A DNA stretch of 26,183 bases, from positions 1 through 26,183 of the IMG/VR virus record IMGVR_UViG_3300020054_000263. One strand, 5' to 3'. This document shows, piece by piece, positions 3,001 to 26,129 of the stretch. Source of the stretch: a virus. The position numbers were made by a program, and so were the translations under genes. Within the stretch, counting starts at the first letter, position 1, and every line of letters starts with the position of its first letter. Below the pieces are notes generated by a model that had not been told where the DNA came from, ran no database searches, and saw nothing but the letters and a program-made list of their open reading frames with translations.

Positions 3001-4861
3001 AGCGCTTAAATTCTCCCGCAAACCGCGCTTGCGCCATGATCCTAGCTGTAGTGCCGGGGTCGCCATACACCTCGTCTAGCGAATTAGCCATCGGCGTACC
3101 GAACGCTTCTTCAAAGTTCGTGCTAGTCAGCTTACGGCCTAAATTAATCAACTTAGGCTTAACGGCTTCAGCTTTAGCCGTGCCTTTTTCCGGGCTACCT
3201 CCAACTTTAGCCTTTACCGGCTCGACGATGCCGGCGTCTTTTGGGTCGATAACGTCAAATAGCTCGTTAGAGTCGCCCTCAAGCTCGTCCTCAACCGCAA
3301 TCTTTTGCGTAGGTCGGTCTGGCGCGGCCTCTTGTTGCGCCGTGTCTTGGTCTATAAATTCAGCCGGAGTCACCGGCGCGGCGCCTTTAGGGTCTGTACC
3401 ACGAAAGTCGGGTATACCTCCCTGCTCTACGTACGTTTTAAACGCATCGCTGTTTAAAATTGTCTGCTTGCGGCTGTTGCTGAGTACAGATGTGGGTAAG
3501 GCTTCTAGCTCTGCCGCAGATTTCACGTTGAGCACGGCGTCAATAGACTTCTTACCTATGCCCTTTATGCCTTTGAGTTCTGTTTCCAGCGTAGCACGCG
3601 CGGCTTGTCTAGCTTCGGCACTTGCTTCCGCTCCTGCCGCCCTCCGTTGCCGAGCCTCAAAATCAACCCCTTCTGCGCCTTCACGCCGTATGGCTGTGAA
3701 GCCGATTGTCGGGTCGTCCTTAGTGCCGCCGCCCGTTCGGATAATGTCGAAGTCCGCCGCGTTGTCGCCTCGACGGGTCAGGGCCGCTTTAGCGGCGGCT
3801 TCCGTCTTGAATAGTTCTCCGCTCTTGGTTCTTACGCCCTCGCGCTTGGCACGGCTAAGGCGCTCTACTTCCTGCCCCGCCTCTGGTAGCTCGGTGGTTT
3901 CTCCACGCGTAGGAAGAACGCGCTTTGTAGCAGGCTCGGGGGAGGTGCCGCGAATCCCAGTAAACCCTGCGCCCATAGCAGAGCCAAGGAGAAGCCCGCC
4001 AGCCGCCGCAGAGCCTAACCCTTCGGTTATGTCTTCGCCAAGGGCTAAGTTCGTTATAGCCTGTTCTGAGAGCGACTGGGGCAGTTCTTCAAACACACCC
4101 TCGCGGATGCCGCCCAGCGCCATACGGTTCAAAAGCCGGCCTTTACCTGCACCGGCTCCGCCTGCAAGGGCGATGTCAATATCGCCAGCTTGCTCTAGCC
4201 CTCGACCCACGGCACCCGTTAGCCCTTGCTGTTGGGCCATTTTGCCGATGAGTCGGTTGCTTCCCCCAGAGATTAAGCCGGTAGCTATACCAGCGGGGAC
4301 ACCCGCTAAACGCTGAAAGTAATCGCCCCCTTCTTCGCCGATAGCACCGGCGGTCAAAGCACCTGCTACGGTGCCCTCGCCGATAGCCGCTCGCACTGGA
4401 GCAGACAACTTAGGAGCAAGAGCGCCAACTCCTCTGGCTACTGCTCCACCCGTGAATACAGCCGGCAAGGTTTCTGCAAGAGCGCCCACGCCCAAGGCTG
4501 GGTCGCGTGCAATAGCGCGGAGGTACGTCCCCGCGTCATCGAAAAACCCTTCTGTTTGGGCTAGCTCTTGCGCAAGCCTCGCCTGTTCTGCTTGCCTTTG
4601 CGGAGAGTACAGGGCTTCGCCCATACCCCGCCTAAGCTCGCCTATCCCTTGACTAACCCCGCCCAAACCGGGAACCAGCGCGGCAAAGCCCTGCGGGATG
4701 GCGGCAATCCCGCTAAGGACATCCACCCCTACGTCAGAAACGCGCCTAAGCCCTGCCCCTTGATCGGCAAGGTCGATTGCTTGGTTGTAATCGGGTCGGA
4801 GGGGCGCCAGCAGGCTAGACCCGCGTGCAATCTCCTCGGGAGTCGGGTTTAGTAAGGACAT
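1..4861 (-). CDS. Giant DNA-ejection/internal virion protein with zincin motif (3' end off window)
   Basis: The minus-strand frame is open from ATG 4861, which overlaps the previous TAA as TAATG, to the left edge. I followed 1620 codons and saw no stop in the parts I checked. It starts MSLLNPTPEEIARG. Gly/Ala-rich hydrophobic helices lie at about 90-170 and 230-290, with EGVFEELPQSLSEQ at about 254-267, a motif of large phage internal proteins. Residues 338-385 (GELFKTEAAAKAALTRRG) resemble a small domain of large polyvalent phage proteins. Two diverged 44-residue units lie at 434-477 and 620-663. H1046-E-V-L-H1050 with E1125 in DEFVSYGMTDP is a probable zinc-peptidase site. A helical, Lys/Glu-rich C-terminal part follows. 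It is likely injected with DNA into the cell envelope, as for T7 gp16 or N4-type ejection proteins, and may cut a host or phage protein. The full length is unknown. Confidence 0.7.
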   Translation of the reverse strand, partial: MSLLNPTPEEIARGSSLLAPLRPDYNQAIDLADQGAGLRRVSDVGVDVLSGIAAIPQGFAALVPGLGGVSQGIGELRRGMGEALYSPQRQAEQARLAQELAQTEGFFDDAGTYLRAIARDPALGVGALAETLPAVFTGGAVARGVGALAPKLSAPVRAAIGEGTVAGALTAGAIGEEGGDYFQRLAGVPAGIATGLISGGSNRLIGKMAQQQGLTGAVGRGLEQAGDIDIALAGGAGAGKGRLLNRMALGGIREGVFEELPQSLSEQAITNLALGEDITEGLGSAAAGGLLLGSAMGAGFTGIRGTSPEPATKRVLPTRGETTELPEAGQEVERLSRAKREGVRTKSGELFKTEAAAKAALTRRGDNAADFDIIRTGGGTKDDPTIGFTAIRREGAEGVDFEARQRRAAGAEASAEARQAARATLETELKGIKGIGKKSIDAVLNVKSAAELEALPTSVLSNSRKQTILNSDAFKTYVEQGGIPDFRGTDPKGAAPVTPAEFIDQDTAQQEAAPDRPTQKIAVEDELEGDSNELFDVIDPKDAGIVEPVKAKVGGSPEKGTAKAEAVKPKLINLGRKLTSTNFEEAFGTPMANSLDEVYGDPGTTARIMAQARFAGEFKRLGKQTLEVLLNVKSPEELVALPSEVISNADKAKILASDAFNEYTAPAGAADAIEKKLLTPDGFKALVQLMRGYTPAEGSRAATGKKAGTQASRNTIKLVNAVRRWLDTDNNAQSQRLVDAFEELHAAMVSYESILKVYPRARPLQVTGANELDIIDLPGPDFAAEQGTTFSDEELEQQEDFAKRVVSTPPEKSGLGVIPLEARTKRIADAINEIEQLVGRNNLRIAQYLAKRATARTEREVTSLAPTTREGETSPAIKFHIYNRRYREGRLTDFGTERNETRDAVDQAVEVPGIAPDEEVTYGYNSVVGQTTSGRPVTETNTPSLARQIDKRLAQKERDFSTPVGAMLAHYRKVSPSPYTRMLADHLIKIGERNGFFNNVELVIGNVKAAEHPEQAYGLLSRRAEGSPQYTLYLATDGQNESTVLHEVLHAVTRGTLTQQANQDIITALNAVRTDLLGRFKIVDEQITEFNREGVDPDLKLSPEELSRLAVILRESDKRGQMIDEFVSYGMTDPVLQKVMAATPIRNAATLTAVKKGAAKNLWQFFVMKIKALLGIKAVPNSVLSSYMDATSALLSDIYARSDDSLTAFAFGFSKKGGKGNKSAIVKAAIDFNNLPPDMVAKSQSAKQKAAESNKGREKVNEDVKKFKEDEKKKRQDAAAEAEQARFDEVAAGKAETAVPQAKRKTRQDLTVFDQLGRTTMNVIANAFGKETWAQLMDGFGKWSADKFANFVSQENPLSAAVRAVVVGVVDKYGTTEQFRNLLHEYARNRQNVSATAYAAYETLRSMDSNAQQALVDYLGERDDDKLAKALNNPAHVDMVKKTVAGMEELLSEAKRLRVMREGQEDFTLDDILALSDNPRYRRMIDRAAGNVGISEAARAKNFKTATQSMDWVITKNGKQLSGLKPGRDFYKMYNATTGDTYFVEQGIDENLVRSKNLVPDMDDLLPYRTEKLLAQTDVRMSRRRTVEEMGTERNPIQVVASLTATMQDMSRRIEGARMN
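2873..3004 (-). repeat. Copy 2 of a duplicated 44-residue HhH-like unit
   Basis: Residues 620-663 of the giant ejection protein: RLGKQTLEVLLNVKSPEELVALP...SN...KAKIL..SDAFNEY. It is the diverged partner of copy 1, 558 bases away, with the same spacing and no gap. The first Gly of the hairpin is lost (G434 becomes R620), so DNA binding is less likely in this copy than in copy 1. Confidence 0.65.
3431..3562 (-). repeat. Copy 1 of a duplicated 44-residue HhH-like unit
   Basis: Residues 434-477 of the giant ejection protein: GIGKKSIDAVLNVKS...ELEALP...SN...KQTIL..SDAFKTY. It aligns without gaps to copy 2 (residues 620-663) with 23 of 44 identical residues by my count. The 'GIGKK..DAVLN..S..EL..L' pattern looks like a helix-hairpin-helix DNA-binding motif followed by a helix. 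Confidence 0.65.
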
Positions 4862-6009
4862 TAAGCATCATCCGCCATCATCGCTTTTTCGACCATCGCT
4901 TTAATAGTCTTCATGCCGTAAAACCGCACGGCTTCCGCAGGGAATACATAGTCGCCCGTGTCTAGCCCAGCCGTTTTGCCTTCGGCTGTGGGGTTTTCCA
5001 TACTAACTTCGCCGCCATCGGCAAAGGGCCGTACTCTACCCTCCTCACGCTCCTCGGGGTTTTGATACATTTGCAGTAGCATATTGAGGGCGTCCGACGT
5101 TAGCTCCGGGTCGGATTGTCGGACAGCCATGTTGCCGCCGGTGGCGGCGTTCAAAATCGTTTCGGCGATGGCACGTTGACGCTCCCGTTGGGCTGTGTCG
5201 TAAAGCAGTTCTTGGCCGTACCCGGTCACATCCGTAGCCCTCTGCTGCAAGCCGGCATTCGCTAGAATCTGCGCCAAATCCCGTTGCATCGCGTTACGGT
5301 CAACGCCAGACTTGTACTCAGCCTGCCCAATATCCTCGGCTAGCCGTGCTTCGTCGAGCGCCTGCTTCTGGGACAACAACCCTTGGCGCCCACCTTCGCG
5401 GACGCTATCTGCGGCCAGTCCCCTAGACGCTTGGCGGTCTTGAATAGCCATTTTAAGTAGCTCGGGCGTAACAAAGCCGACTTGGTTCATGCGGTCGTAA
5501 AAATCGCCCTGCTTAGCGGCCCGCTCCATAGCCAGATTTTCGCGCATAGCCTGCTGTCTGTTAGGGATATTGATAGCCGTACGGCTCTCATATCGGGGCA
5601 TAAACTCGGCAGAAGACGCGAGGTTAATAGCCCTGCGGGTCAAATCGTTAGCCGAGTACTGAGGGGGCGCGCTTCTTGAGCCAAAGCCCGTGTCTACAGA
5701 AAGCTGGCGAGTCCCTGCCTCGCGGTTAATTCTTTCCATAGACTGATCTAAAGCAGACCTATTAGGATCAGGTACTGGCCCCCCGTAGATTTGCTCCCTA
5801 TACGCCTTTAGGCTGGCCGCCAGCGCGTCCGCCGACGGGTCAGGCGCAGGGGGCGCAGGGGGCGCAGGGGGCGCAGGGGGCGCAGGGTTCCCTCTTTGGT
5901 TAGCACGAGCGCGCGCTATACCGCTGTTATTGCTAGAGTTAGTGGGAATGCCTATTGCCTGTGCAAGCGAAGCTGCTTGTTCCCTCTCTAGTGCCGGGTT
6001 TCTAGCCAT
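4861..6009 (-). CDS. Helical internal virion/ejection-type protein with GEFVIP-like C-terminus
   Basis: A 382-residue protein from ATG 6009, chosen because AGGAGG lies 9 bases upstream and the ATG overlaps the adaptor's TAA (TAATG); the longer reading from 6030 adds seven residues without such a site. The N-terminus contains a Pro/Ala tract (five PAP units) encoded by a perfect 9-bp tandem repeat. The middle, about residues 90-310, is Arg/Gln/Glu/Ala rich and highly helical. The C-terminus has FADGGEV at 329-335 and GDYVFPAEAVRFYG at 352-365, a relative of the GEFVIP module of the 252-residue protein. Its position between adaptor and giant ejection protein is that of internal ejection proteins (compare P22 gp7/gp20), hence the call. 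No catalytic motif is seen. It could alternatively be a tail-assembly protein. Confidence 0.5.
   Translation of the reverse strand: MARNPALEREQAASLAQAIGIPTNSSNNSGIARARANQRGNPAPPAPPAPPAPPAPDPSADALAASLKAYREQIYGGPVPDPNRSALDQSMERINREAGTRQLSVDTGFGSRSAPPQYSANDLTRRAINLASSAEFMPRYESRTAINIPNRQQAMRENLAMERAAKQGDFYDRMNQVGFVTPELLKMAIQDRQASRGLAADSVREGGRQGLLSQKQALDEARLAEDIGQAEYKSGVDRNAMQRDLAQILANAGLQQRATDVTGYGQELLYDTAQRERQRAIAETILNAATGGNMAVRQSDPELTSDALNMLLQMYQNPEEREEGRVRPFADGGEVSMENPTAEGKTAGLDTGDYVFPAEAVRFYGMKTIKAMVEKAMMADDA
5843..5887 (-). repeat. Five perfect tandem copies of a 9-bp unit
   Basis: GGCGCAGGG is repeated five times on the plus strand, which reads as PAP units on the minus strand within the N-terminal linker of the 382-residue protein. 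The copies are identical, unlike the diverged protein repeats elsewhere in the window, so the tract is probably recent and may vary in copy number without breaking the frame (9 bp = 3 codons). Confidence 0.9.
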
Positions 6010-6641
6010 TACCGTTTGCCTCCTGTCCACGAGCGCAGGGGCGCACGGGGCGATGTGCGTAGTAGATAATCCATACGCTTAGCTTCCAGAACGCCAAGCT
6101 CCCAGCGCTGCATAAACGTCGTCGCAGTGCCTACGTTGTTACCATCTACATCGTTAGTGATAAGTGCTTTATGCGCCGCGAAGTCCGCGAGCAGCAACTG
6201 CCACTCAGCAGGGACAACCGGATCGTCGCTAGCGCCAAACCCTTCTTCGGGCAAGGCGGCTATAATTAAATCTACAATGTACGCGGCATCTGGTGTGGGG
6301 TAAAACGTAACATTGCGTGTGGGAAAACCAGTAACATACCCCGTAGGTTTACCCCTAGCACTACGCAAATAGACAGTACTGCTTGGCGCAGTTAGACGGT
6401 CTACAGGCGTGTCGTCTATGTGTGCGAAGACAACCTTTAGTGTGTTTTCTGGTAACGCGTAGGTGCTGGAGTCCGCAGCTGTGGTCACCGACTCCTCTAC
6501 TACGTTCAGGTGCGTGCGCATACAAAATAGCCGCTCCGCCTCTTGCAGAGCGGTTAGTAGGAAGTCGTCTGACCAAAGATACGGCTCAGTAGAATCAGCC
6601 AACAACGTGCGTGTATACGCGATTAACTCTGAGCCGGTCAT
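6009..6641 (-). CDS. Head-tail adaptor (connector) protein
   Basis: A 210-residue protein with the features of podovirus gp4-like adaptors. The N-terminal helix and loop MTGSELIAYTRTLLADSTEPYLWSDDFLLTALQEAERLFC are typical ('LI..tR..L.D...PYLWSD..L..al.eAe'). Next come a beta-rich middle (STYALPEN..., GFPTRNVTFYPTPD) and a C-terminal helical part (LLLADFAAHKALI) with a basic Arg-rich end. These proteins dock under the portal after packaging, close the channel and form the platform for the tail. It starts with GAGGAG 6 bases upstream, overlapping the end of the previous gene, and its TAA overlaps the next ATG as TAATG. Confidence 0.75.
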   Translation of the reverse strand: MTGSELIAYTRTLLADSTEPYLWSDDFLLTALQEAERLFCMRTHLNVVEESVTTAADSSTYALPENTLKVVFAHIDDTPVDRLTAPSSTVYLRSARGKPTGYVTGFPTRNVTFYPTPDAAYIVDLIIAALPEEGFGASDDPVVPAEWQLLLADFAAHKALITNDVDGNNVGTATTFMQRWELGVLEAKRMDYLLRTSPRAPLRSWTGGKR

Positions 6642-11710: not shown

Positions 11711-12469
11711 TTACGCTATCGCCTGTTTCTTCATCGCCATCCTAGCTTTGTCTACCATAGCGTCTAAAAACTTAGTGCCGTAGTAATCTACTACTTTCTT
11801 AGGAATAACGAACTCGCCCTTAGATAATGCTGCGGGTTGCTCTCCGTCGATCATAGCGGGAATAGAATCAGATTTTGCAGTGCCGGGGCCGTCAAGCAAT
11901 GCACCGCCTACATCCACTTCTCCCCCATCGGCGAAGCCCATAGCTCCAGTACCGCCCATATTTGTTTGCTTTGCCAGCTGTCTAGCCAACTGAGCTTGTT
12001 GCTGTGCAATTCTAGGAATAGCTTGCTCGGGAGGCAGTACAGACTTGCCTAAGCCCGCGTTTTTCATAGCCTTTACGTACTGCTTATACAGCGGACTCAT
12101 ACGCATATCGCCGGGGGCAACTACTCCGCCATCTTTAAACCCAAGCGGACTAAACCCTTGGGTGTCCTCGTTAGGACCAAAAGAAATAGCGCGCGGAGTG
12201 CTAGTACTAGTAAAGTCCACAGGTGAGCTAGGTTGCCGAGAAATAGCAGAACCGAAGCCTTGGCCGGCGAGGTTTCGGCGCAGGGCGCTAACTTGCGCAG
12301 GGTCGGAATACGCGGCAAATGTGCCGCCCGTCAAGCCTGTGGTTAGCGCTTGAGCCTGTGCCGCCTGCTGTGTTTCAGTGGTCCGCGCGCCAGTTAGAGC
12401 ACGGTCGGCTTCTGCGGTAGCTAGCTTGCTTTCTAATGCGCGGCTAAAGTCTTCTTCAAAGGTTGCCAT
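11711..12469 (-). CDS. GEFVIP-motif phage virion-associated protein
   Basis: A 252-residue protein with an AAGGT-type site upstream of ATG 12469 and a stop one base before the portal start. The N-terminal half is Ala, Gln and Thr rich with no known domain. The C-terminal third carries FADGGEV (179-185), then LDGPGTAKSDSIPAMIDG, then GEFVIPKKVVDYYG (218-231) and a final amphipathic helix. This 'G-P-G-t-x-x-S-D-S-I-P-A-x-x-x-x-G-E-F-V-I-P' signature is widespread in phage structural proteins, often near tail or internal virion genes, but its biochemical role is not known to me. A related ending occurs in the 382-residue protein at 4861-6009, which suggests a shared docking or sorting function. 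It is not a portal chaperone that I can recognise. Confidence 0.5.
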   Translation of the reverse strand: MATFEEDFSRALESKLATAEADRALTGARTTETQQAAQAQALTTGLTGGTFAAYSDPAQVSALRRNLAGQGFGSAISRQPSSPVDFTSTSTPRAISFGPNEDTQGFSPLGFKDGGVVAPGDMRMSPLYKQYVKAMKNAGLGKSVLPPEQAIPRIAQQQAQLARQLAKQTNMGGTGAMGFADGGEVDVGGALLDGPGTAKSDSIPAMIDGEQPAALSKGEFVIPKKVVDYYGTKFLDAMVDKARMAMKKQAIA

Positions 12470-19400: not shown

Positions 19401-19787
19401 AGAAACTACTGACGATGCTGGCAAGTCTAAAAGCAACACCGGAATAGGTGGGTCTACAGCTAGTGGTTCGTCTGCCGACCTATCCACCGGCTCATACTCT
19501 CTTGTGTCGCTGTCGTGCACCTCTGCATCGCGTACATCTAAATCTGTTTGATACGACTGCATGCGCAGACGGTCTCGCGCATCCATGAACCACTGGAGTT
19601 CTTCTAGCGTGTCAATCTCATACGTGGCGCTAGTGCCGTTTTTATAGACGACAAAAACGGTGTACACCTCGTTTCCGTTTTCGTCATACCCCTTAAACGT
19701 AGGGCCATCAATAGAAGCAATTTGGCCGCTAGCATTAGAAACGGTGGTAGTCCCGTTAGAGTTGCTGTTTGCTTGCGTAAAGCCCAT
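16410..19787 (-). CDS. LamG/Ig-like tail fibre or adhesion protein with repeat arrays
   Basis: Taken from ATG 19787 it has 1125 residues; I prefer this start over an in-frame ATG at 19811 because it forms a TAATG overlap with the upstream stop and has GGAG about 10 bases upstream. Layout: a short N-terminal domain (about 1-60); a linker; an Ig-like domain around 120-205 (PASSVVSAGQQIQLTF...NIQWYEV...FYAICW); and a concanavalin/LamG-like domain at about 330-590, with the typical FTMEGW (W342) strand and DGAWHFVSVTR...IYIHVDG (W472) hairpin. Then come two arrays of short repeats (about 607-752 and 758-969) and a unique C-terminal region to 1125. LamG and Ig folds bind glycans and proteins, so host-surface adhesion is the likely role. 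The next gene starts in a TAATG overlap with its stop. Confidence 0.65.
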   Translation of the reverse strand: MGFTQANSNSNGTTTVSNASGQIASIDGPTFKGYDENGNEVYTVFVVYKNGTSATYEIDTLEELQWFMDARDRLRMQSYQTDLDVRDAEVHDSDTREYEPVDRSADEPLAVDPPIPVLLLDLPASSVVSAGQQIQLTFTPTACNIQWYEVGVGALPGETDNTLTLDFMLPEDAGRQFYAICWTDARPDDGVLTTTTSLVLGPEIYDPYRAYSTLFQMESLGVTTNTNYVDGLPFKAPINSQFLFVSGGHSSSWPGPPDTAQDWTSTQFRNTDNSRFGAASLRINGLRDYAAWYGLDNGERQQYYDLFNLAYYTNPDSWNTAPEDHQGGVPPLFDQDFTMEGWFFSDYALTTLDEIEAAEGSTGEWNNWARSSNRACLFSIGEPFDADRTDSLNPGAETARKVNLREGAIDPSSLDGHFSGLFSMPDGQLVWSSFYPDTEVVPGRAIYSLDYFLEHKVIVADLEPHNVRDGAWHFVSVTRRSGNIYIHVDGVLVGSGRDDTSYPAIVHYASVNGDRDHGKQAHTPFYIGQLLGAGFYGQSKVFTYEWNNKKGWFNDQPGVSAPNVYSQCTWGGDIDSFRYTPTKARYTSEDYEIPGTEFHTLEIPVYGGEMRVPSPLGEPAVQTQVETGFVSAFVPIAGAPQIYSTSDTTVHGLLVPSPLSAPAAFVQVPANVSSRLSVPAPLFAPEGEVDIPLAGRLRVRSPLGRPSVLATGQFDVKLDVRSALGAPSAAAVGPIDSWVSSPSPLFAPAIQANVSAGVTAQETVYETAVITSAMYTDLVRSTVTDSAVITSAATIEASSKLLESATIASAAYPRQTIVVSYTDGAIINDTAVTDVRTIQLVTESAVISDIATLEAPRTTVTESAVISSALYAGRTHTVAVSDAAKIVARAYTPVRLTAVDGAVITDATYFQITSRVTTTDAAVITSAAYVETEAVTTITESAVITANALPRVQAKTTITDEAFIYDTAYPVADVSGQPFGEQSAWTANTNIWAMSRYATNDITGLAGRYAVAASGLYEQASTYANLSIQSGFLNFGSPSLKTTPAMYSYSTHASPMTIKVTADLNGAQNTYTYTEMARPAGDHRAVRTLFGKGLKSTYFKLGISSSGYTHVQYCVPVVQELSRRI
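16880..17512 (-). repeat. Array of about eleven 19-20-residue 'TESAVITSAxY' repeats
   Basis: This second protein-level array in the LamG/Ig protein (about residues 758-969) has the consensus [VIT]-T-[ED]-[SA]-A-[VK]-I-[TS]-[SD]-A-x-Y followed by 7-9 variable residues. I count eleven units, among them YETAVITSAMY, VTDSAVITSAA, VTESAVISSALY, VSDAAKIVARAY, TTDAAVITSAAY, ITESAVITANAL and ITDEAFIYDTAY. The regular period suggests a solenoid or elongated beta stalk between the LamG domain and the C-terminal region. Confidence 0.75.
17530..17965 (-). repeat. Array of about seven ~21-residue 'PSPLxxP' repeats
   Basis: Protein-level repeats inside the LamG/Ig protein (about residues 607-752). The units begin with V-P-S-P-L-x-x-P-like cores: VPSPLGEPA, a degenerate VPIAGAPQI, VPSPLSAPA, VPAPLFAPE, VRSPLGRPS, VRSALGAPS and SPSPLFAPA, spaced about 21-24 residues apart. 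DNA identity between units is low, so they are old duplications kept by selection. They probably form a rigid run of beta-turn units or a stalk. Confidence 0.7.
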
Positions 19788-20533
19788 TAGTCGTCGTACT
19801 CCACTCGCCACAGCATTTTGTTAGCGGGGCCGGTAACGGCTGATGAAAAACTAAACCCGCTGTACAGCACTTCCGGCGGCGTGCCACTAGACGAATCTAG
19901 GTTGATCTTTATAGGGCCACCGCCCGGCTTGCGTCGTGCGCCCGGTGCCGGCGTGAAATCGAACGTGTAACCCGCACCCTTGCCGCCAGTGACATAATCT
20001 GCGCTAACCAGAGGGGCATTGCTTGCGTTGCCGCAAGAAAATACATCCCAAAAATTGTATGTGGTTGTGGCCCCGCCACCACCTATTACCGAGTCGGGAG
20101 AAGGTAACGGGTCAAACGTATCGGGGTCCGGTGCAAACACAGTCGAAGAATATGTAGACGGAGATGCTGCGCGTATGTCGGCGAAGCGCTGGCTCACAGG
20201 GCCAGTAAAGTCCGTGGCGAGCGCCGTTCCGTCTGTATCTACGCGCGTTTTCCGTACAACCGTGATCTTAGCGACGCGGCTAGTCAGCAAAGTAAGCCCG
20301 TCGCCGGCTACGTCTACAACGCATTGATAGCGGTGCCCGCCCGATAGAGGGCGTATCCGCGCAAATACTAGCGTGTTTGTAGCAGCGGTGTTGACTAACT
20401 CGGTGCCGCCATCATCCACCATGTACCAACGGTACACGGTCCCCGCTTGTGGCGTGTCAATGGTTACCGATAATGTAACTGCGTCGTATTCATTTACTGT
20501 TACATCAGCCGGCTCATTAGTGATGGCTGGCAC
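19787..20533 (-). CDS. Ig-like domain virion protein
   Basis: A 248-residue protein starting with GTG 20533, which has a GGGAGGGG site 6 bases upstream. Residues 1-90 read as one immunoglobulin-like beta sandwich: a 'P-A-D-V-T-V-N-E-Y-D-A-V-T-L-S-V' entry strand, a central W in VYRWYMVDDGG, and a Y-x-C-V-V-D strand near residues 69-76. Ig-like folds are common in surface-exposed phage head and tail proteins, where they bind weakly to carbohydrates. The second half has Gly and Pro rich stretches (GGGGATTTYNFWDVFSCG, near 152-169; KPGGGPIKINL) and no recognised domain. The TAA overlaps the ATG of the following LamG/Ig protein as TAATG, so the two are likely made in step and may assemble together. 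Confidence 0.6.
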   Translation of the reverse strand: MPAITNEPADVTVNEYDAVTLSVTIDTPQAGTVYRWYMVDDGGTELVNTAATNTLVFARIRPLSGGHRYQCVVDVAGDGLTLLTSRVAKITVVRKTRVDTDGTALATDFTGPVSQRFADIRAASPSTYSSTVFAPDPDTFDPLPSPDSVIGGGGATTTYNFWDVFSCGNASNAPLVSADYVTGGKGAGYTFDFTPAPGARRKPGGGPIKINLDSSSGTPPEVLYSGFSFSSAVTGPANKMLWRVEYDD

Positions 20534-20550: not shown

Positions 20551-20579
20551 ACCAGCATGGCTGGTGCGGCCTTAGCCGC
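20551..20579 (-). promoter_or_regulatory. Two adjacent inverted repeats at a gene junction
   Basis: Two perfect small inverted repeats sit back to back. ACCAGC-ATG-GCTGGT (20551-20565) forms a 6-bp stem with a 3-base loop. GCGGC-CTTA-GCCGC (20566-20579) forms a 5-bp stem whose loop holds the stop codon (20572-20574) of the 135-residue gene. No T-run follows on the minus strand, so this does not look like an intrinsic terminator. The hairpins lie just upstream of the GGGAGGGG ribosome-binding site of the next gene (GTG 20533). They could affect mRNA processing or coupling between the two genes, or be chance. Confidence 0.35.
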
Positions 20580-20979
20580 CGATAACAGCGGAGACTACCG
20601 TTACTTGCGAACCTGATACGATAGACAACGAGTTGAGTACTAAGTACCCAGACACAGGCGTAGAGCCTGCAACCGTAGGGATACTAAGCAGGACATTCCC
20701 CGCGTCGTCTTTGATTACGCCGTAAGTGCAGGTACCTGTAGCGTTTGCCGCCGTGTCCGGTCCGGCAATAGTCAAAGTAAGCACGCCCGTGCTGCTATCA
20801 ACAACGCCACTAGGCTGGACGTTCCCGGTGCCGAGCAGAACTTCAGCTAACAAAACGTCGCTGTCGTCATACAACTCAATTTTGCCGCCGACGGAGCCGT
20901 CGTCGATAAGGTTAAGAAATGCGTTATTCGCTGCAATAACAGCGCTGGCGGCGTATGTATATTGTGAGGGAGCGGGCAT
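20572..20979 (-). CDS. Small beta-rich phage structural protein
   Basis: A 135-residue protein. ATG 20979 is preceded by a strong AGGAGG site 5 bases upstream, inside the 50-base gap after the 1206-residue protein. The sequence is Ala, Gly, Ser, Thr and Val rich with alternating hydrophobics. The pattern (NAFLNLIDDGSVGGKIELYD near residues 18-37; LLAEVLLG; TGTCTYGVIKDDAGNVLLS; a final LVLNSLSIVSGSQVTV) resembles a small beta-sandwich-like protein often found in phage structural clusters. No signal peptide or catalytic motif is visible. Two small inverted repeats cover its stop codon and the gap to the next gene. It is probably a minor virion protein; the exact role is unknown. Confidence 0.55.
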   Translation of the reverse strand: MPAPSQYTYAASAVIAANNAFLNLIDDGSVGGKIELYDDSDVLLAEVLLGTGNVQPSGVVDSSTGVLTLTIAGPDTAANATGTCTYGVIKDDAGNVLLSIPTVAGSTPVSGYLVLNSLSIVSGSQVTVVSAVIGG

Positions 20980-21029: not shown

Positions 21030-24000
21030 TCAATAGATAACACCACAAGGAAAAACATCGGTAACTCCTGTAAGCCCTGCGGCGCTATCTAAGTCAAAAT
21101 TAGCTTCTATTACCAACAACGGGTCGCCGCTTGGGTCTGGCCTATACTCGCCATAGGTATAACTACTAGGCGCCCCGGCTAAATAAACTACATTTTCGGG
21201 TATAGGGCCAACATACGGCATGTCGTAGCTATTAAACCGAGTAAGTTGGCGTTCCTTGTAGGTCAAAACGCGGCTTGTAGTCTGGGTAGGCGGCAACAGG
21301 GGTGGTAACAGCGACGCGGGCGCCAAGCATAGCGTGTCGCTTTCCGGCCCAATTTGCACGCGATGCAAGGAAAAATCTTCAGACTGCGCCGTTATCCACC
21401 GGCTAGGCACGCAGCTTAGCTCGTGGTTTACCGGATAACGCCGCTCAAGGGTGTACATGGTAGTGCCGCTAGGCGCAGACTGCACCGCTATCTCCGCGAA
21501 AGTAAACTGGGGTACAGCCCCTCCGACGGCGCTGTGGATTTCGTGATAATTCACATACTCCCGAGTAGGCTCTCCCATAAGTTTAGATATAGTTACGCGT
21601 ACGTAATCTGAGCTTGCGTTTGTAAGTGTTACTGGCGTAGTAAAGTGTATCTCAGATAAATTGTATAGCCTGTCATTATAGAACGGCCCCCACTCATATA
21701 CATACTCGTTCCGCAAACTAGACCCTGTGCGGCCATCTAGCAGCGATTCTTCCCAAAACTCGTGGCCGGCGTAGTCCCCGTGCGCCCAAACAGCGCCACT
21801 GCTAACGGGGGCTGTGTGCGTTTTTGTCCACAGTACGTCTGTTACCCCGTCTCCTAAGTCTTGTTCTACAGAGCTATCAAAAAGTATTATATCGTAATCT
21901 ACTGAATTGTATGTCCACTTATACCTATGCGATGTATTTCGCACGTACGATATTTCTTCTGTTTTAGGATTTAGACTAGATATGTAACAAACAAAATTAC
22001 CGCCGGTCGTGTAAGGACTGTTCGCGTGCGGCGTAGACGTATCGTAATACTGTACGCTAACGGGGCCACTGCTGGTAACCGTGGGCAAAGGCGGGACTGT
22101 CTTGTTCGCTTGAAAGTAAACAAATTCTTTACCGCTAGGAAAAACCAGTTTCTGCTGCGCCCACATGTAGTGGTCCATGCCCGTAGTGGACTGGTTGTGT
22201 AACAGATGCCCGTACCGAAAATCTGCGTATCCATACTGGTACCCATAAAAGTCTATAACCGATTGCACATGCTGTAACTGGTCGGCGTCATCGTAGTGGT
22301 GGAATATGTTGTAGCTTCCTTGCGCGGCCTGCGTGTATTGATTTTTAACAAGCTGGTATGTATCTCCGCCCACAGAGAACGTAGACCCTACGTCGGTAGT
22401 AGCGGCGCTAACTACGTTGGTTATAGGCGTCTGTTGCGGTTGAAAGGTGAACCCACTAGTGGCGTTGTACTCCACGGTTCGCGGAATAGCGGCGCGCTGT
22501 GTGAACGGCAGGGCTGTTTGGAACGCAGGATTAGTGAAGTTATTAGCGACACGGTCGTATTGCGCGGTAACGCTGTTGCTGCTTAGTTCGTAGGCGGTAA
22601 AGCAGAACTTGTTGCCATCGCTAGAAAACTCCACGGTGCCAGCCCACTGTGGCACAAAGCCGTTAGCGATAGTGAAGTCGTACTCGTCCTCTATGCCCCA
22701 CGATACTCCCTGCGTTTCTGGCGTTCGCCACGGCAGGTCGTAAGACTCAGACAAAGCGGCGGGAAACACCGCTACTATCACCTTTGCGTGCGTGCCCAGC
22801 ACCAGCGGACCAGTGTAGCTATTGTTGATCTGGTAGTTGACATACTGCGGTATGGCGTCTGTTTCCCAGTACACCACGCGAATCCAAGTCTGGCCGTCCT
22901 TTTCAAACGGATGTGCTCCCGCCACACACATAAATTCATCAGTAGCGAGGTCGGCGTCAGGAAAGGTTTGGTTAAGCTGGCCAGTATAAAAAGGCGCGTT
23001 ATGCGGCGGTAGCTCATAAAACCTAGTGCCCACGCTAAACCGGCGTATCTGGTACGCAGGGTAGCAATAGTGGGGGTTGGGCGAGTTGTACATACCAACC
23101 CCGCCGGCATACGTATTGACCGTAACATCAGGGGTAGGTACCCATGTAAGCCGCTGGCAGAAATTTTCAGACCACACAGAAAGCCCCGGCTCGTCTTGTA
23201 TTGGCGAGCTAGGGGGCAATTCGTTCCAGTACTGACCGGGCACCGCGTTAACGTCGAATATCGTATTTACTGTGCCGCTGTGCTCGCTACCGCCGACGTT
23301 TAAGCTAGCGCCTTTTACCAAAAAGTACGATGCTGAAGGGTGCGCCGTGTGTTTTTCAAAAACGTCTAGTAAGCTCAAAAACCCTCGGGTGTCCCAGTTA
23401 GCAGAGACAATCGCAGCGTAGTGCCCCGGAGAGTTACGCCAAAAATCCGTAAGCCATTCGCCTATGCCTAATTGTCCGTTACCTAAGTCGTTGTAGTACT
23501 GCACTAAAAGCGCGTTTTCGACGGGGTTATCGGCGTACGGAAGCCCCCACTCTTGACCAGAGTGCGCAATGTGCCTACCAGCCGCTGTACGGAATCCCGG
23601 CATCCAATCGTAATGCGAGTGGCCGAAGTAGCGAGGAGGGTTAATCAGCCCAACGTAGTACATACCGGCGTCGCCAGTCTCGCCATCTCCGCGCAAAGGC
23701 CGGTAGAACGGGGTCAGCCCAGAGTTATTTTCTGTCCGGTAAAAGTTAGTTTTTTGGAAGATGCCCTCTTTAACTAGGCTGGGGTACAGTAATTCTTGTG
23801 GCCTGTGCGCGTAGTACGCGGTGTCTTCTGGTTCGCTAAACGCGCTTGCGTCTAACACTTTTGTAGTTATGACTTCTGGCTCGCTGGACGCTGACTGCGA
23901 GTCGCCACCTACTCGGACGGCGGCGAAAAGCCCGCCCCCAAGCTCCGGTATCGTGCCTTCGTTAAACTCAAACCAATCCGCAGGGGTATTGCTTTGGCCG

Positions 24001-24650
24001 TCGTTAAAGCTATGTGGCTGGCCAAAAATAGGCGCCGTCGAGTAGCGAATTTCTCGGTACGTAGGCCAAGGAAGCGGGTCGCCGGTGTCTGGGTCTATGT
24101 CGTAGGAATCGTTGATGCGCCAAGTAACTGTAGGCGTCAAGTTTTCAAGGCTTTCGGGAATACCGCCCACGTACCGCAAGTCGTCCATGTACTTGTTGTT
24201 TCTATAGTTATTTATAAGCACCTGCGGGAGAGACCCGCCAGATGTGTACTGCACATCGCCGTTTTGATCGGTGATGACCGTCGCGTCGGGAGTTGCCGCT
24301 CGCATGGGCAGTCCAAGGCCGTCCGGCTCGGCGGCAGACACTGGCGTAAGCACCATACCTTCGGGGCGCCAAGGCATGTGAAGTTCGTAAAAAACAACTT
24401 CATCTTCAAGCAGTTGCGCTAACTCAGAAGGTTCTGTAGGACGAGGCTGGGCTGTTATGTATATGGCCGAGTTGTTTTCAGCCACTACGACTCGCACGTT
24501 GCCAAACGGCAAATCGAATATCTTTTCGTATTCGGCGAGTCCTAAAGAGGAACGCAAAGACGCCGCAATGTTTGCACATTGCAGCGCTTCGGGGAGTAAA
24601 GCCTGCGCAGCGGCTTCGTCCCCACTAAAAAAGACGTTGCCGCTGAACAC
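21030..24650 (-). CDS. Large virion protein with a probable internal CAP/SCP domain
   Basis: A 1206-residue protein that starts with GTG two bases after the previous stop, with no clear Shine-Dalgarno site, so translation is probably coupled. Residues of roughly 285-435 look like a CAP (SCP/PR-1, Pfam CAP-type) domain. There is an N-R...GL-P start (NFYRTENNSGLTPF, about 302-316), then H363 in AHSGQEWG, E378 in PVENALL, E398 in IGEWL, and the characteristic W404-R-N-S-P-G-H410 followed by YAAIV. These can supply the two His and two acidic residues of the CAP cavity. The rest is rich in aromatic, Asn, Gly and Pro residues, with beta-strand character typical of tail fibre or adhesion proteins; no membrane segment is seen. 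Its place among tail-type genes suggests an exposed virion component, perhaps acting on the cell surface. The CAP call is by motif only; the flanking 280 and 770 residues are unrecognised. Confidence 0.6.
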   Translation of the reverse strand: MFSGNVFFSGDEAAAQALLPEALQCANIAASLRSSLGLAEYEKIFDLPFGNVRVVVAENNSAIYITAQPRPTEPSELAQLLEDEVVFYELHMPWRPEGMVLTPVSAAEPDGLGLPMRAATPDATVITDQNGDVQYTSGGSLPQVLINNYRNNKYMDDLRYVGGIPESLENLTPTVTWRINDSYDIDPDTGDPLPWPTYREIRYSTAPIFGQPHSFNDGQSNTPADWFEFNEGTIPELGGGLFAAVRVGGDSQSASSEPEVITTKVLDASAFSEPEDTAYYAHRPQELLYPSLVKEGIFQKTNFYRTENNSGLTPFYRPLRGDGETGDAGMYYVGLINPPRYFGHSHYDWMPGFRTAAGRHIAHSGQEWGLPYADNPVENALLVQYYNDLGNGQLGIGEWLTDFWRNSPGHYAAIVSANWDTRGFLSLLDVFEKHTAHPSASYFLVKGASLNVGGSEHSGTVNTIFDVNAVPGQYWNELPPSSPIQDEPGLSVWSENFCQRLTWVPTPDVTVNTYAGGVGMYNSPNPHYCYPAYQIRRFSVGTRFYELPPHNAPFYTGQLNQTFPDADLATDEFMCVAGAHPFEKDGQTWIRVVYWETDAIPQYVNYQINNSYTGPLVLGTHAKVIVAVFPAALSESYDLPWRTPETQGVSWGIEDEYDFTIANGFVPQWAGTVEFSSDGNKFCFTAYELSSNSVTAQYDRVANNFTNPAFQTALPFTQRAAIPRTVEYNATSGFTFQPQQTPITNVVSAATTDVGSTFSVGGDTYQLVKNQYTQAAQGSYNIFHHYDDADQLQHVQSVIDFYGYQYGYADFRYGHLLHNQSTTGMDHYMWAQQKLVFPSGKEFVYFQANKTVPPLPTVTSSGPVSVQYYDTSTPHANSPYTTGGNFVCYISSLNPKTEEISYVRNTSHRYKWTYNSVDYDIILFDSSVEQDLGDGVTDVLWTKTHTAPVSSGAVWAHGDYAGHEFWEESLLDGRTGSSLRNEYVYEWGPFYNDRLYNLSEIHFTTPVTLTNASSDYVRVTISKLMGEPTREYVNYHEIHSAVGGAVPQFTFAEIAVQSAPSGTTMYTLERRYPVNHELSCVPSRWITAQSEDFSLHRVQIGPESDTLCLAPASLLPPLLPPTQTTSRVLTYKERQLTRFNSYDMPYVGPIPENVVYLAGAPSSYTYGEYRPDPSGDPLLVIEANFDLDSAAGLTGVTDVFPCGVIY

Positions 24651-24652
24651 TT

Positions 24653-25228
24653 TTAGCTATCGGTAAGTTCTACTTCGTACCCTAGCTCAAACGTGTCGCC
24701 GTTGTTGACTTGACGTGCCGCTGCGAAACGAGTCGCAGAAACCAGCGTACCGGTCGTTCCGCCTTTTACGTTGCTAGACAGCAAGCCTGCGCCGTAAATG
24801 TCGATAGCGGCAGAAGCGGCGATGGTGAACTGAGCATAAGAGGCCAAGTTACCAATCTTACCAGTCGCAGCAGAGCCGGCAGTCCACGCGGGGCGAGTAG
24901 TTTCGCTGTATCCCTCAGTGTTGCTGGTGATCTCAGTAGCGTTGCTGGTAAAGTTAGCCGCCGTCCAGTTAGAGGCCGGAGTAGCGTTGCCGCTGTAAGG
25001 GGCTAAGTACCACGCCGTAATAGGCGTCGTGCCGCCCAAAGCTGCGTCCAGCACATACAAAATGCCTTCTGCTACTACTAAGTTTGGGTCAACACAAAGG
25101 TCTTTCCCGTTAACGCGGTGGTAGTATTTACCTTTGGCCATGATTGATCCGTGGATCAAAAGCCCCTCGTCTGTTTGCTTAAAGTCGCCACGGTCGAGGA
25201 AAGTGGCGATCTCACTACGGTGCTTCAT
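24653..25228 (-). CDS. Conserved phage structural protein, beta-rich
   Basis: A 191-residue protein. I chose ATG 25228 because an AGGAG ribosome-binding site sits 6 bases upstream in the 10-base gap after the previous gene; a longer reading from 25360 would overlap that gene out of frame and has no such site. Residues 48-78 (DPNLVV...GILYVLDAALGG...TAWYLAPYSG) and 146-164 (GAGLLSSNVKGGTTGTLVS) fit a common phage protein pattern: a short helix around 'vv.eGl.ylLd.al', then 'itsWYvgl', then 'ga.l.ss...GgttGtL'. Proteins with this pattern are usually annotated as hypothetical or structural and lie among tail genes, as here. No enzyme motif is visible. The precise place in the virion is unknown. 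Confidence 0.6.
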   Translation of the reverse strand: MKHRSEIATFLDRGDFKQTDEGLLIHGSIMAKGKYYHRVNGKDLCVDPNLVVAEGILYVLDAALGGTTPITAWYLAPYSGNATPASNWTAANFTSNATEITSNTEGYSETTRPAWTAGSAATGKIGNLASYAQFTIAASAAIDIYGAGLLSSNVKGGTTGTLVSATRFAAARQVNNGDTFELGYEVELTDS

Positions 25229-25238
25229 AATTGTGCTC

Positions 25239-26129
25239 CTATCGCGCAAAAGCATAGATGCGGTCGCCCTGTACGACCAAGTTTCTGGGTAGTAACGGTA
25301 GACCTTCGATATTACTAGCCTGTGGGTATGATACACTACCATCTGGTTTACCAACAGCAAAACCTACATCAGTAAACCATACCGCTACTTCTTCAGCTGT
25401 ACCCACCAATTCTGGTGGCATATTCTGCGTGCCAGTCACTACTCTACCATAGGGGGCCGACTGTTTGCCTACAACACGCATCGTCCAGTTTTCTGGGGCT
25501 GTTCCTGCGAAAAAATACGTATTTTTAGCGCCGCCAACAAAAACGCCGCCATCTAATGCGGCGAGCCACGTCGCTGGCTCTGGCAAACGTAAATAGTTGT
25601 GGGTAGCGCTGTGCGCGCCGTACTCCAACGGCTCTGACCAACGAAGGGTGTGAGACCGCAAAACAAGTAGCCTGCCTCGCCAGTAGGCTAGATCGCGCCC
25701 CCCTTCAAGCTGCGTGTAGGCGTACTGCTGATCGTGGAACTCCCTACCGGGGCGCTGGTTTACTACAAACGAGCTATCCCCGCCGTCCGCAGCGATAATG
25801 GTTTCGCCGTCTGTACACACCGGCCTGTCTGTAACCACGGTCCACGCCAACTTGTCACCATTGGTGTTCGCCGTTACTGTAAACCCGTTAGGAGATAGCT
25901 TACCAACCTGCGCGCCTCGGCCCGCATAAACGTCGCTACCGAACGCAAAGATAGAGTGGTACTCCGAGGTGTCGTCCAGCAGAGAAAACGCGTGACGCGA
26001 CTCTACGGAGCCGTCACGGTCAATATTGCAGTCCACCGCGTCGTACAGCGCATCGGGGGTGAGCGAGTGAGGGTCAACAGTGTTGACTATACCTCGCAGC
26101 CACGGCCCTATAGCCGGTGCGTCAGCCAT
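25239..26129 (-). CDS. Beta-propeller-like phage virion (tail) protein
   Basis: A 296-residue protein. The N-terminus (about residues 9-48, GPWLRGIVNT...DALYDAVDCNIDRDGSVESR) matches the pattern of a widespread phage structural family that starts with a G-I-N-x-x-x-P...AL-x-x-A-V-N-x-D-x-x-G signature. The rest is built of short beta-strand and turn units, including WRGRLLV at 150-156, WSEPL at 164-168 and GGVFVG at 194-199. Such patterns occur in propeller-type podovirus proteins related to the P22 gp10 stabilisation/tail-hub family, although this protein is shorter than P22 gp10. I see no signal peptide, membrane segment or catalytic motif. It begins in a TAATG overlap with the upstream gene and ends 10 bases before the next start. 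The virion role is likely; hub, nozzle or stabiliser cannot be separated from sequence alone. Confidence 0.6.
   Translation of the reverse strand: MADAPAIGPWLRGIVNTVDPHSLTPDALYDAVDCNIDRDGSVESRHAFSLLDDTSEYHSIFAFGSDVYAGRGAQVGKLSPNGFTVTANTNGDKLAWTVVTDRPVCTDGETIIAADGGDSSFVVNQRPGREFHDQQYAYTQLEGGRDLAYWRGRLLVLRSHTLRWSEPLEYGAHSATHNYLRLPEPATWLAALDGGVFVGGAKNTYFFAGTAPENWTMRVVGKQSAPYGRVVTGTQNMPPELVGTAEEVAVWFTDVGFAVGKPDGSVSYPQASNIEGLPLLPRNLVVQGDRIYAFAR

Follow-up and report, generated by a model that had tools for sequence, protein, structure and literature searches.

A very divergent CAP domain embedded in a large structural-block protein of podovirus-like phages

The CAP fold is known mainly from small secreted proteins, and catalysis by CAP domains is disputed. 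In bacterial CAP proteins of the SCP/YkwD type (PF00188, TIGR02909; PDB entry 4IFA), the motifs N..R, H, R, [G/A]EN, W..S..H and W-x-x-x-F follow one another in a fixed order. A common structure–function relationship of CAP domains is unknown; for the two conserved histidines, zinc binding has been proposed for GAPR-1 and observed in GLIPR1 (PMC6900432). CAP proteins are also encoded by phages. The Bacillus megaterium phages Slash and Stills carry LysM/SCP (YkwD-like) proteins, described as secreted or possibly serving lysogenic conversion and not assigned to the structural module (PMC3861416, PMC4541274), and PHROG 16914, annotated as 'sporulation protein', likewise represents a phage CAP. 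The protein described here resembles those of Slash and Stills in being a phage-encoded CAP, a comparison confined to the CAP domain itself. It differs from the bacterial SCP/YkwD type in that its domain forms part of an 800–1,200-aa protein of the phage structural block rather than a small secreted protein. The sequence-only reading knew of no such arrangement inside a large podovirus tail-region protein, and our search of the open-licence literature agrees: phage-encoded CAP proteins are already known, and the search turned up no phage structural protein described as containing a CAP domain.

The window, i.e. the whole stretch of DNA analysed here, is a 26,183-base IMG/VR virus record whose structural genes run along the minus strand (Table 1). 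It also encodes a portal/adaptor, whose nearest relatives in deposited phages are those of Rhizobium phages (37%), and a major head protein. Close copies of the 1206-aa protein (93–100% identity) were found on five IMG/VR contigs, with intact copies at the same level of identity in L002, L004 and L005. No relative was found among the 50,697 phage records of INPHARED, and searching with the single sequence gave no CAP relative in Pfam, PHROGs, PDB or INPHARED. The PF00188 comparison proposed by the sequence-only reading gave no match to the window protein, even at E 10, nor did a PDB search with its CAP region alone. The long C-terminal part after the CAP domain was not recognised; a match to Pfam SP2 at residues 853–928 (E 0.0049) fell below the cut-off and was taken as chance. 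AlphaFold2 models from the single sequence and from ten sequences were of low confidence (mean pLDDT 38.0 and 39.9, respectively), and a Foldseek search with a low-confidence model contained no CAP match and amounted to noise.

Table 1. Features of the CAP gene and its neighbours, in coordinates of the window
Feature	Coordinates	Strand	Basis or remark
Protein of 1206 aa with embedded predicted CAP domain	21030..24650	-	ORF; GTG start, stop included
Family N-terminal motif W94-x-P-E-G-x-V-x-T-P103 ... G111-x-G-x-P115	24306..24371	-	kept across family
Predicted CAP domain, residues about 286–497, insertions around core	23160..23795	-	alignment, hhalign, PDB match
T301-N302-x-x-R305, first CAP helix motif	23736..23750	-	invariant in alignment; corresponds to TN..R of 4IFA
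H344 (FGHSH), first conserved His	23619..23621	-	invariant in family; matched to FSHDS His of 4IFA
R359, invariant Arg between His and Glu, as in ordinary CAPs	23574..23576	-	alignment, 4IFA
E378-N379, [G/A]EN motif	23514..23519	-	alignment, 4IFA
W404-R-N-S407-P-G-H410-Y411, second conserved His motif	23418..23441	-	S and H invariant
W493-S-E-N-F497, probable last CAP strand	23160..23174	-	alignment
Conserved C-terminal end (relatives: LDLxxITGxxDLxxNIxPxGV)	21033..21098	-	kept in relatives
Head closure Hc3 (phrog_8040), 296 aa	25239..26129	-	PHROG E 1.1e-35
phrog_8123, directly upstream of CAP gene	24653..25360	-	PHROG E 2.4e-57
Virion structural protein phrog_3758, directly downstream of CAP gene	20572..20979	-	PHROG E 6.4e-6

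More distant relatives were recovered with short patterns. A scan of IMG/VR with the degenerate pattern W-x-N-S-P-G-H-x-A-x-[I/M] yielded 38 stretches whose translations look like CAP proteins on inspection, one of them (L022) read as such from a short fragment only. Most are small proteins; two, L018 (1208 aa from stop to stop) and L050 (949 aa), are large and similar to the window protein, with L050 matching it over the N-terminus and the CAP region (1e-5 and 3e-4; E-values scaled to a 1-Mb database). The N-terminal pattern W-x-P-E-G-x-V-x-T-P, common to the window protein, L018 and L050, served as a search anchor independent of the CAP region. It added L054, L055/L064, L057/L059/L062/L067/L082, L063, L060, L068, L061/L065, L066 and L076, and also drew chance matches without any family features. 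The large relatives measure 800–1,210 aa where complete, and some are cut by contig ends. Some family members lie in bacterial genomes, presumably as prophages: L082 is located in Paracidovorax citrulli DSM 17060. The C-terminal pattern LxxITGxxDLxxxNI gave 10 stretches in IMG/VR, nine of which are known family loci, while the tenth, L112, lies on the same contig as L068; no CAP-less protein with the family C-terminal end was found within reach of this pattern. A further pattern, W-x-N-x-P-G-H-Y-A, was discarded, its extra matches being non-CAP chance hits only. Searches for related loci with L018, L050 and the window protein as queries yielded nothing beyond near-identical or identical copies, and no locus in genomes; no cultured phage was found with the L057-type and L054 proteins as queries.

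The residues from which a CAP domain had originally been proposed are all present in the window protein, namely NFYR at 302, GLTP at 311, H363 in AHSG (362–365), E378 in VENA (377–380), E398 in GEW (397–399), and W404 and H410 in WRNSPGHYAAI. All distant relatives, also those obtained with CAP-independent patterns, have the conserved residues in the CAP-like order. The family thus carries the ordered CAP signature N..R - H - [G/A]EN - W..S..H: every relative that spans the region retains TN..R, H, R, EN and [W/L]..S..H, and EN and S..H stand at the expected places in all large relatives found. Variation within the second histidine motif includes L at the W404 position in L064 and D at the Y411 position in L076. 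Of the four site residues first proposed (H363, E378, E398 and H410), E378 and H410 stand, whereas H363 (replaced by T in L054) and E398 are not conserved in the family alignment. The conserved set comprises instead H344, E378 and H410, together with R359, N302/R305 and N379. With E398 variable, the family lacks the second conserved Glu that belongs to the classical four-residue CAP site; the ordinary bacterial CAPs compared also have no conserved Glu there, and its absence is therefore not treated as excluding. Residues 493–497 (WSENF) align with the W-A-Q-L-F of L054 and L066, and ordinary CAPs end in a corresponding W-V-Q-x-F; this match to the last strand places the domain at about residues 286–497. 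The interval first marked for it (23345–23796, approximately residues 285–435) ends too early. Compared with bacterial SCP/YkwD CAPs, the order of the motifs is the same and their spacing approximately so; the window family differs in its long insertions, above all in the segment from the second His to the last strand, and in having HY in place of the HR of ordinary CAPs.

The similarity to CAP domains is best seen in profile comparisons. An hhalign profile built only from members recovered with the N-terminal pattern matched Pfam-called CAP domains of Burkholderiales genomes with a probability of 96.6% and a score of 67.0, compared with a mean of 10.2 and a maximum of 16.2 in 200 column shuffles. 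With the residue order retained by all distant relatives and the column-shuffled controls failing completely, the motif match is more than chance. Masking lowered the score to 50.5 without GEN, 50.0 without TN..R, 29 without SPxHY and 11 without all four blocks, and this block-by-block fall indicates that several blocks contribute to the CAP similarity. The window protein and a close copy matched the CAP-independent relatives at 99.4%, but compared directly with the CAPs the same pair reached only 9.5%, so that the CAP case for the window protein runs through its relatives. A 12-row family profile (A1), which includes L018 and L050, both found by the CAP motif, returned a single match at E ≤ 10 among 177,635 PDB sequences: 4IFA (E 6.3e-4), annotated as 'Extracellular protein containing a SCP domain', with an alignment that takes in N..R, H, R, GEN and W.NS.GH. 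A ten-row profile without L018 (A2) did not return 4IFA from the PDB; A1 shifts the window EN four columns out of place, which A2 does not. Among Pfam families, PF00188 had matches in the largest number of members (5/12 at E ≤ 1, best E 0.0036). Neither the window protein nor the family members tested reached its gathering threshold, which is a detection limit and not a structural criterion, and full-length L018 and L050 had no match in Pfam. The CAP span of L018 aligns with PHROG 16914 (E 0.002). In 399 Burkholderiales genomes, the family profile identified one bacterial CAP protein (E 7e-5); a model built on ordinary CAPs scored this protein at 106 bits, which confirms that it is CAP-like. 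The ordered residues of the distant relatives and the profile scores beyond shuffles thus bear out the proposed domain, and judging from these alignments the window protein almost certainly holds a genuine, very divergent CAP domain.

The genes around the CAP gene form a block, Hc3 / phrog_8123 / CAP protein / phrog_3758, that recurs in distant loci. The CAP gene has Hc3 (phrog_8040) in its vicinity in L018, L050, L060 and L054 and phrog_8123 in L018, L060, L061 and L054 (the L050 gene at this position does not match phrog_8123), and phrog_3758 follows directly downstream in L018, L050 and L064. Downstream of the L054 gene comes a head protein (phrog_240), and in L066 the neighbours differ, the structural block not being seen for those tested. 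From this gene order, and with major head and portal proteins encoded on the same contig of the window, the CAP protein is probably part of the virion. The same gene order is found in F116-like Pseudomonas phages and Pseudoalteromonas phage Y7, with a protein of ~860 aa replacing the CAP protein. This protein (F116 gp54 and its counterparts in Pseudomonas phage 8P_019 and Y7) occupies the same place, after an Hc3-like gene and phrog_8123, but has no CAP motifs, and hence the position does not require a CAP. Its N-terminal 50 residues gave a collinear profile score of 36.9 with the CAP family, above the maximum of 22.6 in 100 shuffles; the hhalign probability was only 9%, so that a common scaffold origin is suggested, not shown, and direct blastp against the F116-like proteins returned nothing. 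Going by the profile similarity, the two groups possibly share an attachment region at the N-terminus.

Further observations concern the neighbouring genes. In the window Hc3, the stretch 127–277 matches PHROG positions 227–375, and the Hc3 proteins of relatives measure 416–426 aa; in L005, a 1606-aa open frame lies just upstream of the Hc3 gene. L064 carries two genes of ~145–150 aa after the CAP gene (3097–3990), both matching phrog_3758, and similar pairs occur in L057, L063 and L065; the structural gene thus appears duplicated in relatives and single in the window. At 19787–20533 (minus strand), the window encodes a 248-aa protein with weak matches to Ig_7 (E 1.9e-4), Ig_3 (E 1.5e-3) and a tail-protein PHROG. 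About 50 C-terminal residues of a 389-aa protein (4861–6030, minus strand) share 36% identity with an internal stretch of a second protein, that of a 252-aa gene (11711–12469, minus strand), in the version carried by relatives; this suggests that the two proteins share a C-terminal module.

The evolutionary rates along the CAP protein, derived from comparison of the window with L002 and L003, are markedly uneven. The pN/pS ratio is 0.13–0.14 for the whole protein, 0.019 for residues 341–420, with plenty of synonymous change, and 0.35–0.46 for residues 1001–1206. H344, R359, E378 and H410 all lie within the slowest-evolving stretch, and the strongest purifying selection falls on the cavity region. 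Fast evolution such as that of residues 1001–1206 would be in keeping with a host-contact region, and the host-variable part of the CAP protein is likely its C-terminal one. Within the same segment (window 21033–21650, minus strand), relatives have a small deletion at about residues 1104–1107.

Based on these data, we propose the following hypothetical scenario, in which (i) the gene product would be a structural protein in the tail region of a podovirus-like phage, probably attached near the tail nozzle by residues 1 to about 165; (ii) the CAP domain would be built into the middle of the protein and followed by the long C-terminal part, which ends in the fast-evolving region and is closed by the conserved motif; (iii) H344 and H410, with E378 nearby, would form the usual CAP cavity holding a divalent metal, by analogy with GLIPR1 and GAPR-1; (iv) during adsorption or genome entry, the CAP domain would bind a constant envelope component, be it lipid, LPS core or peptidoglycan; and (v) the variable C-terminal part would provide host-specific recognition. 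We favour, with moderate confidence, this reading of a tail protein in which the conserved CAP core has two binding partners, a metal and a constant ligand of the envelope. Metal-assisted ligand binding as the function of the domain, rather than catalysis or pure scaffolding, is put forward tentatively, at slightly short of an even chance.

An assembly function, in which the CAP domain packs or oligomerises within a tail appendage, perhaps via a metal, and has no host ligand, appears unlikely, though it deserves consideration. Between close relatives, no other part of the protein is as conserved as the CAP core, and such conservation is unusual for a host-contact region. Crystals of CAP proteins contain dimers or higher oligomers, and the assembly of GAPR-1 depends on zinc (PMC7554809, PMC6900432). 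However, the conserved residues (H, E, H) are those of the open CAP cavity and not obviously needed for pure packing, and F116-like phages build their tail without a CAP. Rather improbable is hydrolytic activity of the domain, as a peptidase or another hydrolase, by which the envelope would be opened as the genome enters. Conservation of the His/Glu cavity residues in all relatives, the lowest pN/pS in the protein and the proximity of the Hc3 gene would fit such an enzyme; the second Glu, however, is not conserved, the sole invariant nucleophile, S407, belongs to the ordinary SPGH motif, and CAP enzymes as such are contested. A different fold of the region, with the motifs matching through chance or convergence, is very improbable, as the failure of single-sequence searches and the low-confidence structure models are outweighed by the ordered residues kept in about a dozen lineages, the majority of them recovered without recourse to the CAP motif, by an hhalign score far above shuffles and by an SCP protein as the only PDB match.

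In summary, our analysis points to a CAP domain that would extend the repertoire of phage tail modules and has been missed by annotation pipelines. It is possible, at rather below an even chance, that a lineage of tailed phages fixed a slowly evolving CAP in a tail protein for metal-dependent binding or opening of the envelope at infection. If the domain is kept in the infection apparatus, the role of a CAP would become directly testable by infection assays.
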